IMG/VR virus record: IMGVR_UViG_3300031576_000277
Location: 1 to 22,694 of that record
Source: a virus
Direction: 5' to 3' (one strand)
DNA length: 22,694 nt
Position numbers and translations under genes: made by a program. The notes beneath the pieces are model-generated. The model did not search any database. It was not told where the DNA came from and saw only the letters and a list, made by a program, of their open reading frames with translations. Positions 2,305 through 17,968 of the stretch are shown piece by piece; within the stretch, counting starts at the first letter, position 1; the number at the start of each line of letters is the position of its first letter.

Positions 2305-3282
2305 ATGCGACACCTGGACCTGTGCAGCGGCATCGGCGGCTTCGCTCTCGGCCTCGGCTGGGCTGGGTTCCGCACGGTCGGCTTCGCGGAACACGAGCCG
2401 TTCCCGTCGAAAGTGCTGGCGCATCGCTGGTCCGACGTGCCTAACTTCGGCGACATGGAGGCGCTGAATGGAGACGAGTTCCCAGACTCCGACATCTGGA
2501 CTGCTGGGTTCCCCTGCCAGCCCGCAAGCGTCGCGGGCCGTCGCGCTGGCACGGAGGATTGCCGCTGGCTTTGGCCTACCCTCGCCCGACTCGTGGCCCG
2601 TCGTCGTCCCAGATGGGTCCTACTCGAAAACGTCCCAGGGCTGCTTACTGTCCAGCGAGGACGGGCATTCGGAGCGGTCCTTGCCGACCTGGCCGCGTGC
2701 GGGTATGTGGGCTGCTGGTTCGTGCTGGGCGCTTGGCAGCTCGGGGCGCGTCACCGTCGTGACCGAGTGTGGGTTGTCGGGCGTAATCTTTCCGACACCG
2801 GATACCGGGAGCGGGCGCAATCGGAGCAAGAGCGATGGCGCAGCGGTCCGCCCCGGGTTGGCGATGATGGCGAGGCGCGAGCTGTGGCCGACACCTACAA
2901 AACAGGATGCAGTGAGTTCTGGATCGGCTGCGTACACGACCGAGAGCGGCAGACACAGCGGCGTCACTCTGACGGATGCAACGGTGCGGGGCTTCTCGAC
3001 TGGCTGTGGGGGTGGGCCGTCGATCCCGCAGACGTGGAGCACGCCGATCAAGCGGGACAAGCGATCGTTTCTGGGAGCCAAGCGGAGTCCCAATGCTCAG
3101 GGAGCGGAGCCGTTGACAGTCCAGGTGGGCGGATCTCTCAACCCCTCGTGGGTCGAGTGGCTCATGGGATTCCCCATCGGATTCACCGCCTTGCCGCCCT
3201 CGGAAACGCCATCGTCCCGCAAGCGGCGCAGTGGATCGGCGAACGCATCCTCGCCATCGAAGCCGAGGAGCTGAGGAAGTGA
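2305..3282 (+). CDS. DNA (cytosine-5) methyltransferase
   Basis: This 325-aa protein transfers a methyl group from S-adenosylmethionine to C5 of cytosine in DNA. Motif I (DLCSGIGGF, residues 5-13) binds the cofactor. Motif IV GFPCQP carries the catalytic Cys71. ENVPG with Glu108 is motif VI, and the HRRDRVWVVG stretch near 150 is motif VIII. The LGNAIVPQ stretch with Asn301 is motif X. The variable region (~165-280) between VIII and IX/X is the target-recognition part. Total length is normal for phage C5 enzymes. No restriction enzyme gene is nearby, so it probably protects phage DNA from host restriction (inference). GAGGAAG upstream supports the ATG. Another reading frame with its own good start is nested inside it. 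Confidence 0.93.
   Translation: MRHLDLCSGIGGFALGLGWAGFRTVGFAEHEPFPSKVLAHRWSDVPNFGDMEALNGDEFPDSDIWTAGFPCQPASVAGRRAGTEDCRWLWPTLARLVARRRPRWVLLENVPGLLTVQRGRAFGAVLADLAACGYVGCWFVLGAWQLGARHRRDRVWVVGRNLSDTGYRERAQSEQERWRSGPPRVGDDGEARAVADTYKTGCSEFWIGCVHDRERQTQRRHSDGCNGAGLLDWLWGWAVDPADVEHADQAGQAIVSGSQAESQCSGSGAVDSPGGRISQPLVGRVAHGIPHRIHRLAALGNAIVPQAAQWIGERILAIEAEELRK
2468..3274 (+). CDS. nested +1-frame ORF, phage protein family of unknown function (268 aa)
   Basis: A complete frame lies inside the methyltransferase gene, shifted +1. Its ATG has GGAGG six bases upstream. The protein carries a series of motifs that I remember from a stand-alone phage/prophage family of unknown function, often annotated near cytosine methyltransferases: YSKTSQGCLL (~52-61), SLPTWPRAGMW (~71-81), WPTPTKQDA (~140-148), SGVTLTDATV, then GGSLNPSWVEWLMGFPIGF (~221-239). 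A rough hand count over 2790-3190 gives third-position GC of about 73% in this frame and about 60% in the methyltransferase frame, which suggests this frame is under real coding selection. Expression is unproven. The alternative is that it is a shadow frame, but the motif series is hard to explain that way. Confidence 0.6.
   Translation: METSSQTPTSGLLGSPASPQASRAVALARRIAAGFGLPSPDSWPVVVPDGSYSKTSQGCLLSSEDGHSERSLPTWPRAGMWAAGSCWALGSSGRVTVVTECGLSGVIFPTPDTGSGRNRSKSDGAAVRPGLAMMARRELWPTPTKQDAVSSGSAAYTTESGRHSGVTLTDATVRGFSTGCGGGPSIPQTWSTPIKRDKRSFLGAKRSPNAQGAEPLTVQVGGSLNPSWVEWLMGFPIGFTALPPSETPSSRKRRSGSANASSPSKPRS
3262..3282 (+). repeat. 21-base direct repeat, copy 2
   Basis: Identical to 2283-2303 and placed at the exact end of the methyltransferase gene. 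After this copy the plus-strand gene train stops and the convergent late operon ends 20 bases further on. No intrinsic terminator (GC hairpin plus T-run) is visible between the convergent stops. Confidence 0.85.
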
Positions 3283-14814: not shown

Positions 14815-15174
14815 TCAGTACACCTGGTAAATGCGCACCGTAGCCTCGCGTACGGTCGGAGTCAGCATCCGAGACTTGAACCCATCGGCCGCAAGACGCA
14901 CCAGGATGTCATTCTCCGCCGTCTCTGGATTGTTCCAGTAGAACGTTGCGTAGTCGCCCTTGCGCGCAAGCAGAAACGCACGCAAGCTGACCAGATCGGA
15001 GGCGGTGATCGGGGAGTACGTGAGGGTCCACTTACGAAAACTGCGGTCGCTGAAGTAAAAGCTCTGCGTTGATCCGTCCTCGAATATGATCGAGCGCGAT
15101 CCCCAGTCCTCCTCCATCTCGATCGGTAGCGTCGGTTGCGGCGTGACTTCGGTGGTGAGGTTCGGTGTAGCCAC
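14815..15174 (-). CDS. minor tail protein, gpM-like
   Basis: 119 aa from a GTG one base after the tape measure stop; an earlier in-frame ATG would sit deep inside the tape measure gene. It contains SIIFEDGSTQSFYFSDRSFR, WTLTYSPITASDLVSLRAFL and YATFYWNNPETAENDILVRL, the pattern of siphophage minor tail proteins that link tube and tip (lambda gpM and relatives). It lies between the tape measure and the tip fusion, exactly the gpM position. The next gene follows its stop after three bases. Confidence 0.82.
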   Translation of the reverse strand: MATPNLTTEVTPQPTLPIEMEEDWGSRSIIFEDGSTQSFYFSDRSFRKWTLTYSPITASDLVSLRAFLLARKGDYATFYWNNPETAENDILVRLAADGFKSRMLTPTVREATVRIYQVY

Positions 15175-15175
15175 T

Positions 15176-17968
15176 TCATCCCCTCCCGTCGAACACCTCG
15201 AATACCGCCTCGGCGACCGCCGTGCGCGCCTTCGGGTCTCGGAGCCATTGCTGAACGCTCGCGGCGTCCACGGCGTTGATGTTGACCGTAACGGGACGGG
15301 TATCTCTCTGAGGTGGCAGCGATGGCGACGTGGATCGGCCAGGCAACCTATCCCTCGGAGATTCCGAGGCCGGCGGCACGACCGGGACCGGGAAGAGCGG
15401 GCCGATGGGGAAGACCGTTTTCCTACGCTCTTCCATGACCTCCGAGGCCCACCGATCAAGCTGGTCGATCATCGAGATCAGTCGGGAGTCCGCAGTCGGA
15501 GACAGACTAACCAAGACCGGCGCGGAGACCTCGGCTCGGAAGCCCTCGAACGGCCCGCCAACGGTACGCAGTTCCTTCTCCGGGCGAGAGAAGGGAGCTG
15601 GACGCTCCGCAACGCCTCCGCCCGCTCCGGCGCCTCCGGGCGCTCCGCCCCCGGCACCCGCCCCAGCCGTCCGCGACCCACCACCTGCGCCCAGAACGCG
15701 AGCCGCGGCTGCCGCGGCGGCCCCGGCGACCGCATGAGCGGCCGCGGCCTTGAAGTAGCCTGCCGGAGGACCAAGCGCAGCCGCACCCCAAGGCGTGGAA
15801 GCGGCGGCGCCCAGGGCGAGTTGCACCACAGCCCTGGCAAACTGTTCCGTGGCCAGTCCGGCCATCGATTCTCCGAGCGCCTTCCGAAGGTCCTTTGCGC
15901 TCCCCTTGCCGGTGGCCACGAGCCTCATAAGCGCGGCACCAAACTGCGGAGCCGCGGCGGCCACCGCCCCGAAGCCGGCCGTGGCTGCCACTTGTCGGGT
16001 CGTGAGCTTATCGAGTTCCTCGCCAGTCGCCTGCGACTGCTGGCGGTACAGATCCACCTCTACGATCGCGGCCTGGATGGGGCCGATGTCGGCAAGAGTC
16101 GTTCGCAGCAAGTCTGCCGCAGCCGCGGACCGCACCAAGGCCTCTGCCGTGGCGAGCAGACCTGCAGGCACGGCGGACCCAGCCACGGCAAGGTTGACCA
16201 GTTCTACGGAGAGCGCGGCAACGGTGTCCCTGAATTGCGCCGTGGCGGCAATTGGGCCGCCCGCCATCGTCGCCAACTTCTCAAGGCTCGCAGCAACATC
16301 GTCTGCGCGATCTTGCAATGTCGTCAGCGCATCGACTTCTGGCAGGATCGTCGGCGTCCTAGGAGCCGGGACTACGCCTCCGACAGCAGACGGCGCCCCT
16401 GCTGTACCCACGCTGACCTGGATCCGCGCCTTGGTAATCGCTTCGAGCCGATTCGCGATGCCCGGTAGCTTCTGGTCCAGATCATCCAGCTTCTTGCCGG
16501 CCGCCTGGACGCCGAGCGCGTACTCCTCCCAGGAGATGATCCCGGTCAGTAACAACGCCTGCAGGGAGCCCACGGACGTCTCGACGTGTTCCGCTTCGCG
16601 AGTCAGCGTCGGCAGATCCTTCGCTCCGAGCTTCTCGAACAGCGTCGAGACGGTAGCCGCCTGCTCCGCCGCGCCCACCAAAGACGTCGTGATCTTGTCC
16701 ACGGCCGGAGGCAGAAGGCCAGCCGCGCGCTTGGCGTCCTCAAGCTTCTTCGTCCATTCCGCGATCTGTGCGCTGAGAATCGGCCGCAACTCCGCGCTAC
16801 TTGTTTCCTGCAACTCACCACGGAGTGCCTTTACGAATTCCTCCATCTGCTTGATCTTGGCCAGTACGTCGCTAGGCAGAGGCACCGCGAGGTTCTTGCG
16901 AAGCTCGTTCGCTGCAGACGCCCAGTCCCAGCTCGCGGACGCCCCGTGGGACACGTTTGTCGCGGCCGCCTCCGCGTTCTGCGCGATGGTCAGGTAGACC
17001 CCGGCCGCGACGTTGCCGGTTGCCACGATGTTCCGCATGAGTTCGCCAGGGTGCTCGAGCGCTTGCGCGAACTGCGACGCGACCACCGGGAGCTGATTGA
17101 AGCCCTGCGCGATGGTCTCCGCAGCGTTCTTCGCTTCCACCCCGATCCGAGTGAAGATCTGCGCGAGCGTTAGCGCCTCGGTCGCAGCCTGCAAGTCGCG
17201 CGTCTGCTTCGGCAACTCCACAAGCGCTGCCGCGTACGCCGCCGCGCGCTTCTCGACCTCCGTAAGCTGGTCTGCGCCCTTCCCGAGCTGGACCGCCAAG
17301 GCGGCCTCGGCCTTCTCGAAGTCGAGCGTCAGGCCGATTGCGCGCAACGTGCGGTTGTTGTGCCTCGTCAGGCCTTCCACGAGTTGATCTACCGCCGTCT
17401 TCTCGTCAACCCCCATGGCCTTGCCGGCCCTTACGGCGGCCTCCGCCAGCGCGCCGAACGAATCCGCCGTAACTGGAAGCTCGAGAAGAATCGCTTGGTT
17501 CGCGAGACGCATCAGGTCGGTGTTATCGACCATGCCCTTAGTCGCCAACTCCAAGCTCTGGACGATTGAGTCCGCGTTCTGGCCTATCCGTGCGCTAAGA
17601 GTCCCGAAGGCCACTTCCACCCGCGAGGCCTGCTCGCCGAACTGTGCGAACTCGACAATCTTCTTGCCAGCGAGAACCGCGGCGGCGCCGACCAATCCGA
17701 ACCCGGCCGCCGCGAGAACGCTCCCACTCCCTAGCCCACCTAGCGCGCGCTCGAGCAGCCCCCCACTCTGCTGCGCGTCCTTGAACCTGTCGGCCAGCCC
17801 ACGCAGGCCAGTCTCGTACTTCCCGGCAGCAGCGTGGGCGCCCTCAGTCGCACCCCTGACCCCACGGAACGTCTGTTCGGCCTGCGTCCGGAACTGCTTC
17901 AGACGTGCCTCGCCCGTCCGGTTGTCAACCTCGATCTGAAACACCATCCCCTGAACTGGTTCGGCCAT
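15176..17968 (-). CDS. tail tape measure protein
   Basis: 930 aa, starting MAEPVQGMVFQIEVDNRTGE one base into the upstream stop (TGATG). Long helical stretches with few cysteines, a hydrophobic segment at ~80-105 (VLAAAGFGLVGAAAVLAGKK), and a Gly/Pro/Ala-rich segment near 760-800 (GGGAPGGAGAGGG) are typical. The protein fills the tail tube, sets its length and is ejected ahead of the DNA. With the common rule of ~0.15 nm per residue, the tail would be about 140 nm. The late order chaperones-tape measure-tip supports the call. The C-terminal ~100 residues (PVTVNINAVDAASVQQWLRD) are a small folded domain. Confidence 0.92.
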   Translation of the reverse strand: MAEPVQGMVFQIEVDNRTGEARLKQFRTQAEQTFRGVRGATEGAHAAAGKYETGLRGLADRFKDAQQSGGLLERALGGLGSGSVLAAAGFGLVGAAAVLAGKKIVEFAQFGEQASRVEVAFGTLSARIGQNADSIVQSLELATKGMVDNTDLMRLANQAILLELPVTADSFGALAEAAVRAGKAMGVDEKTAVDQLVEGLTRHNNRTLRAIGLTLDFEKAEAALAVQLGKGADQLTEVEKRAAAYAAALVELPKQTRDLQAATEALTLAQIFTRIGVEAKNAAETIAQGFNQLPVVASQFAQALEHPGELMRNIVATGNVAAGVYLTIAQNAEAAATNVSHGASASWDWASAANELRKNLAVPLPSDVLAKIKQMEEFVKALRGELQETSSAELRPILSAQIAEWTKKLEDAKRAAGLLPPAVDKITTSLVGAAEQAATVSTLFEKLGAKDLPTLTREAEHVETSVGSLQALLLTGIISWEEYALGVQAAGKKLDDLDQKLPGIANRLEAITKARIQVSVGTAGAPSAVGGVVPAPRTPTILPEVDALTTLQDRADDVAASLEKLATMAGGPIAATAQFRDTVAALSVELVNLAVAGSAVPAGLLATAEALVRSAAAADLLRTTLADIGPIQAAIVEVDLYRQQSQATGEELDKLTTRQVAATAGFGAVAAAAPQFGAALMRLVATGKGSAKDLRKALGESMAGLATEQFARAVVQLALGAAASTPWGAAALGPPAGYFKAAAAHAVAGAAAAAAARVLGAGGGSRTAGAGAGGGAPGGAGAGGGVAERPAPFSRPEKELRTVGGPFEGFRAEVSAPVLVSLSPTADSRLISMIDQLDRWASEVMEERRKTVFPIGPLFPVPVVPPASESPRDRLPGRSTSPSLPPQRDTRPVTVNINAVDAASVQQWLRDPKARTAVAEAVFEVFDGRG

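Follow-up and report, generated by a model that had tools for sequence, protein, structure and literature searches.

The gene for the small subunit of M.EcoHK31I lies within that for the large one and is read in a different frame. The enzyme is described in PMC3404938, which cites Lee et al. 1995, as a two-polypeptide C5 methyltransferase with the target YGGCCR; the large subunit contains motifs I-VIII and X and the small subunit motif IX only, and the domain predicted to recognize the target is placed in the large subunit. In another split C5 methyltransferase, M.AquI, the small subunit carries both IX and X, according to the same paper (PMC3404938). Searches of the literature on M.EcoHK31I/M.EaeI and on nested methyltransferase genes of phages returned only citing papers.

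The viral locus analyzed here very probably encodes, in one stretch of DNA, a heterodimeric cytosine-C5 DNA methyltransferase, the chains of which are referred to below as alpha and beta (Table 1). By its described layout it is likened to M.EcoHK31I, with the same division of motifs between alpha and beta and with beta nested in the other frame. Every architectural feature of M.EcoHK31I that was compared is found at this locus, the comparison being one of layout. As in M.AquI, two polypeptides would make up one enzyme, but motif X, located in the small subunit of M.AquI, is retained in alpha; the M.AquI layout is instead shared by certain actinophage relatives of beta (see below). The preliminary description of this DNA knew of no account of such an arrangement. 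One had in fact been published, at least for the motif split, in PMC3404938, and in the records of the Paenibacillus phages Redbud and Rani the depositors had already given the nested gene the annotation “g50 internal gene.” These annotations, like the protein family phrog_1008, refer to the same beta family in the same nested +1 position as in the window and come without an explanation of its role. Judged from sequence, the locus is thus best described as a predicted two-subunit methyltransferase of a known kind that is unusually widespread.

The window, i.e., the whole stretch of DNA analyzed, is an entire IMG/VR virus record of 22,694 bases with a GC content of 64%. The methyltransferase locus is on its plus strand, whereas profile matches to an endolysin, a head-scaffold-like protein, and a tail-fibre-J-like protein are on the minus strand. 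No restriction enzyme was recognizable among the scanned neighbors of the methyltransferase, in which respect the phage copy differs from M.EcoHK31I. Elsewhere in the window, two long plus-strand open reading frames (ORFs), 15086-16468 (460 codons) and 15795-16997 (400 codons), run antisense to a 930-codon ORF at 15176-17968 and are probably a by-product of the high GC content.

Table 1. Features of the predicted two-frame methyltransferase locus (window coordinates)
Feature	Position	Strand	Evidence
Alpha, predicted subunit; C5-cytosine methyltransferase with motifs I-VIII and X, without IX	2305-3282	+	Pfam, phrog_363, and M.HhaI matches
GGAGG, ribosome-binding-like site for beta	2457-2461	+	Sequence; 6 bases 5' of ATG 2468
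Beta, predicted subunit in nested +1 frame; target-recognition-like region and motif IX	2468-3274	+	phrog_1008, randomization, at least 593 viral relatives
Alpha motif IV, catalytic PCQ, residues 70-72	2512-2520	+	Invariant in alignment A2
Alpha motif VI, ENV, residues 108-110	2626-2634	+	E108 and V110 invariant, N109 nearly so (A2)
Alpha motif VIII region, QLGARHRRDRVWVVG	2737-2781	+	A148, H150, R152, and R154 invariant (A2)
Target-recognition-like region, with beta as the constrained frame	2790-3130	+	Close pairs.200/.060/.044, highest at beta wobble; codon preference favors beta
Beta motif IX, within GGSLNPSWVEWLMGFPIGFTAL	3131-3193	+	Aligns on RRLTPxECERLQGFPDxYT of monomers; alpha wobble entropy near zero
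Alpha motif X, LGNAIVPQ, C-terminal	3199-3222	+	L299, G300, and N301 invariant (A2); divergence.12/.03/.44, an alpha signature

The outer frame, alpha, is intact and open and encodes a protein of 325 amino acids that is matched by phrog_363 over its whole length, whereas the match to the Pfam domain DNA_methylase (E 7e-40) covers residues 1-162 only. A profile built from 68 alpha proteins matched M.HhaI over residues 13-175 (E 1e-40); unlike the window enzyme, M.HhaI is a single polypeptide that includes motif IX in the same frame. Against monomeric relatives, and likewise against known structures, the alignment of the alpha profile stops at motif VIII, the RxR of which is invariant in alignment A2. 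A search of the alpha sequence for motif IX (LTPxE..RLQGFP) found none, so that alpha does not show the in-frame combination of IX with I-VIII and X that defines a monomeric C5 methyltransferase. Of the motifs “IX/X” placed in this frame by the preliminary description, X (LGNAIVPQ) is in alpha and IX in beta.

The nested frame comprises 268 open codons in the +1 register relative to alpha, inside the alpha gene, and its main attributes agree with those initially reported: GGAGG precedes the nested ATG by six bases; the quoted family motifs occur in both frames (TSQGCLL, SLPTWPRAGM, WPTPT, and LNPSWVEWLMGFPIG in beta; VAHGIPHR and LGNAIVPQ in alpha); WLMGFP of beta (starting at 3158) and VAHGIP of alpha (starting at 3157) are the same bases read one base apart; and the third-position GC over 2790-3190, given earlier as about 73% against 60%, comes to 73.9% for the beta frame and 64.2% for the alpha frame. 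The protein was previously regarded as being of unknown function. However, it is matched by phrog_1008, which carries the label “DNA methyltransferase” (E 2e-19), and the strongest conserved block among 69 beta proteins, GGxLNPTWVEWLMGFPxGWTDL, contains a segment (LNPxWVEWLMGFPxGWT) that aligns on motif IX of the monomers (RRLTPxECERLQGFPDxYTxI) with an hhalign E value of 6e-4 and a probability of 29% over a short stretch of 40 columns. This block is accordingly taken to be the predicted methyltransferase motif IX. With such a motif in beta and none in alpha, the motifs are divided between the chains, I-VIII and X being in alpha and IX in beta. Comparison of the beta profile with PDB sequences yielded nothing relevant. 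An AlphaFold2 model of beta alone (pLDDT 59, pTM 0.27) was too poor for a fold search, its best part being the motif IX helix; as a half-domain, beta may need a partner to fold.

Substitution patterns show that the weight of coding shifts along the locus: alpha carries it over motifs I-VIII, beta over the target-recognition region and motif IX, and alpha again over motif X. Between related pairs, the three alpha codon positions diverge by.184/.122/.490 in the part preceding the overlap and by.522/.405/.409 in the target-recognition region; the values are.212/.130/.132 for motif IX and.077/.026/.413 for motif X. Since alpha position 1 is the wobble position of beta, the main coding frame changes from alpha to beta and then returns to alpha. 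In the window itself, codon preference follows the same order (beta +0.27 and alpha -0.27 in motif IX; alpha +0.42 and beta -0.21 in motif X). Target recognition thus appears to sit in the overprinted frame, in contrast to the prediction given for M.EcoHK31I in PMC3404938. Which subunit recognizes DNA is now directly testable, and the substitution pattern points to the overprinted one.

The change of the constrained frame near alpha residue 165 could also be produced by a programmed +1 ribosomal frameshift near motif VIII, resulting in a single chain with motifs I-IX that ends in the beta frame and leaves the nested ATG unused. This would also fit the actinophage members of the family, in which alpha stops just past motif VIII where the +1 frame goes on. 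Frameshifting is nevertheless quite unlikely. Constraint on the beta frame is evident as early as alpha residues 101-162 (wobble divergence of.21-.29 versus.51), a stretch for which the shifted product would use the alpha frame, and a start codon (ATG or GTG) accompanied by a Shine-Dalgarno match is present in the beta frame close to its beginning at 26 of the 68 loci, compared with 8.0 +/- 2.2 (maximum, 14) after synonymous randomization. The constraint 5' of any needed shift point and the enrichment of starts make an internal start the preferred route for the translation of beta. In addition, the shifted product of the window would be devoid of motif X, and M.EcoHK31I is described in PMC3404938 as two polypeptides.

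Alternatively, beta could have a separate function, e.g., that of a regulator or an anti-restriction protein, and be overprinted on a complete methyltransferase. Monomeric relatives that have motif IX in their methyltransferase frame also possess a +1 ORF under constraint, which differs from beta (see below), so that +1 proteins need not donate motif IX. At the window locus, however, alpha is without motif IX, and beta has exactly this motif, in the right order before X, which makes a separate function very improbable.

In a contig with 64% GC, an open frame alone is weak evidence, and the conserved content of the frames is decisive. In the randomization test, the protein of one frame was preserved, its codons were redrawn from its own usage, and the other frame was scored against its family, with 200 trials per locus. 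With alpha kept, the native beta of the window scored 192.9, compared with a mean of 40.2 and a maximum of 85.7 among the randomized copies, only 12 of which (out of 200) stayed stop-free in the beta frame. The native beta score exceeded all 200 randomizations at 72 of the 72 loci, most of the relatives having been picked via beta-frame similarity; the same outcome was obtained for six named records from phages and plasmids, of which three were reached via the alpha frame. The reverse test, in which beta was kept and alpha was scored, likewise succeeded at 72 of 72 loci (window, 208.7 versus a maximum of 68.9). The wobble positions of conserved four-fold codons of alpha have an entropy of 1.80 bits upstream of the overlap, and those of the monomers 1.76 bits in the segment matching motif IX/X; within that segment, the alpha entropy is at most 0.13 bits at 7 of 12 sites and close to 0 in motif IX. 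Alpha and beta are both real, selected proteins, as had been claimed for the nested frame. The reading in which the methyltransferase frame is the sole gene and the +1 conservation simply follows from its bases is refuted by the randomization scores, by the frozen alpha wobble sites in motif IX, and by the beta wobble, which changes faster than either of the other positions across the target-recognition region and motif IX. The monomers L082-L126, without motif IX in the +1 frame, still match the N-terminal half of the beta profile, and this similarity may in part be such a shadow; for beta as a whole, that reading has hardly any probability left. Out-of-frame HNH genes have been described in phage methylases (PMC11855218), but a selfish homing endonuclease akin to the ShiLan element can be dismissed almost entirely, as neither HNH nor any other Pfam domain was found in beta, there is no insertion, motifs of alpha continue across the overlap, and what beta contains is motif IX.

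In the favored reading of a two-chain enzyme, alpha would fold the catalytic domain (motifs I-VIII) and close it with the C-terminal motif X helix, whereas beta, translated from its own ribosome-binding site, would supply the target-recognition region and motif IX. The chains would assemble with beta in the DNA major groove, in the manner of the small domain of M.HhaI, and both would be needed to methylate a specific sequence; this methylation would probably shield the phage DNA from host restriction. The part of alpha between motifs VIII and X would serve mainly as a bridge, kept open so that alpha reaches motif X.

Relatives of beta were found in at least 593 stretches of viral contigs and at least 304 stretches of bacterial genomes. 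Among 80 viral loci, 76 were clean and nested in +1, so that together with the window all 77 clean loci (77/77) overlap a methyltransferase in the other frame; of the other four, one was truncated and three were broken by stops or frameshifts. In bacteria, 73 of 80 loci were nested, with motif X in alpha. A layout known from one or two bacterial enzymes is therefore common in phages and prophage-like loci, and the hundreds of pairs make up a large natural data set on the constraint shared by two frames. As annotation often gives only one of the two genes, catalogues describe half-enzymes. Several members (L049, L055, L069, L147, and L176) have stops or frameshifts in one frame, with some affected in both, and are probably decaying or mis-sequenced copies. 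The sole candidate for an in-frame fusion of beta with a catalytic domain, L176, is a degraded, frameshifted copy and was rejected.

In the actinophage pairs Peaches gp77/gp76, RedFox gp42/gp43, and Samy SAMYPH_49/50, alpha does not extend past motif VIII, and both motifs IX and X are held by the +1 protein, a member of the same beta family. These pairs are annotated as two DNA methyltransferases. By their motif content, the separate members (gp76, gp43, and SAMYPH_50) are predicted to be the C-terminal halves of split, M.AquI-like enzymes, and they are probably what the preliminary description referred to as a stand-alone family. Its suggestion that such a family was born by overprinting of a methyltransferase C terminus is not upheld: these proteins carry IX and X and follow a methyltransferase truncated to I-VIII, so that, as enzyme halves, they offer no evidence for birth by overprinting. 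In a catalytic-domain tree made by a quick method, too weak to polarize split versus nested origins, the nested loci did not form one exclusive clade.

A further open +1 ORF (e.g., L104:3155-3631 and L083:2554-3042) is found in the monomeric C5 methyltransferases L082-L126, in which motif IX is in frame; this ORF contains SLSDVLETGxVPQRYFLSxKACxGILRRAEKRGKxLP and belongs to phrog_16143. Its family score exceeded all synonymous randomizations in 26 of 26 cases, and divergence in this class turns +1-like at methyltransferase residues 163-200 (.275/.102/.178 and.535/.311/.255). No description of this ORF was found in the literature, and it is apparently an undescribed overprinted gene. Its N-terminal half resembles beta (hhalign, 2e-9); the cross-test between the two gave a median z of 2.1-2.9, and most of this likeness may be a shared shadow. 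It is possible, although we would stop short of expecting it, that the +1 frame over the phage C5 methyltransferase core is a general nursery of overprinted genes, having given rise to beta and to a different constrained protein in the monomers, and that in the nested class the DNA target is read by the overprinted frame instead of the catalytic subunit. The dmt gene of phage P1 was recovered in a tblastn match to the monomer-class ORF. AlphaFold2 predicts for the last third of this ORF a confident helical domain (approximately residues 110-155; pLDDT of 73-95 by block), for which a comparison with PDB gave no significant match. In BFVD, the helical domain of the L104:3155-3631 model is matched by G1FGG9, an uncharacterised 81-amino-acid protein of Mycobacterium phage Thibault (44% identity over 64 columns; E 4e-3), which suggests that this domain may also occur apart.
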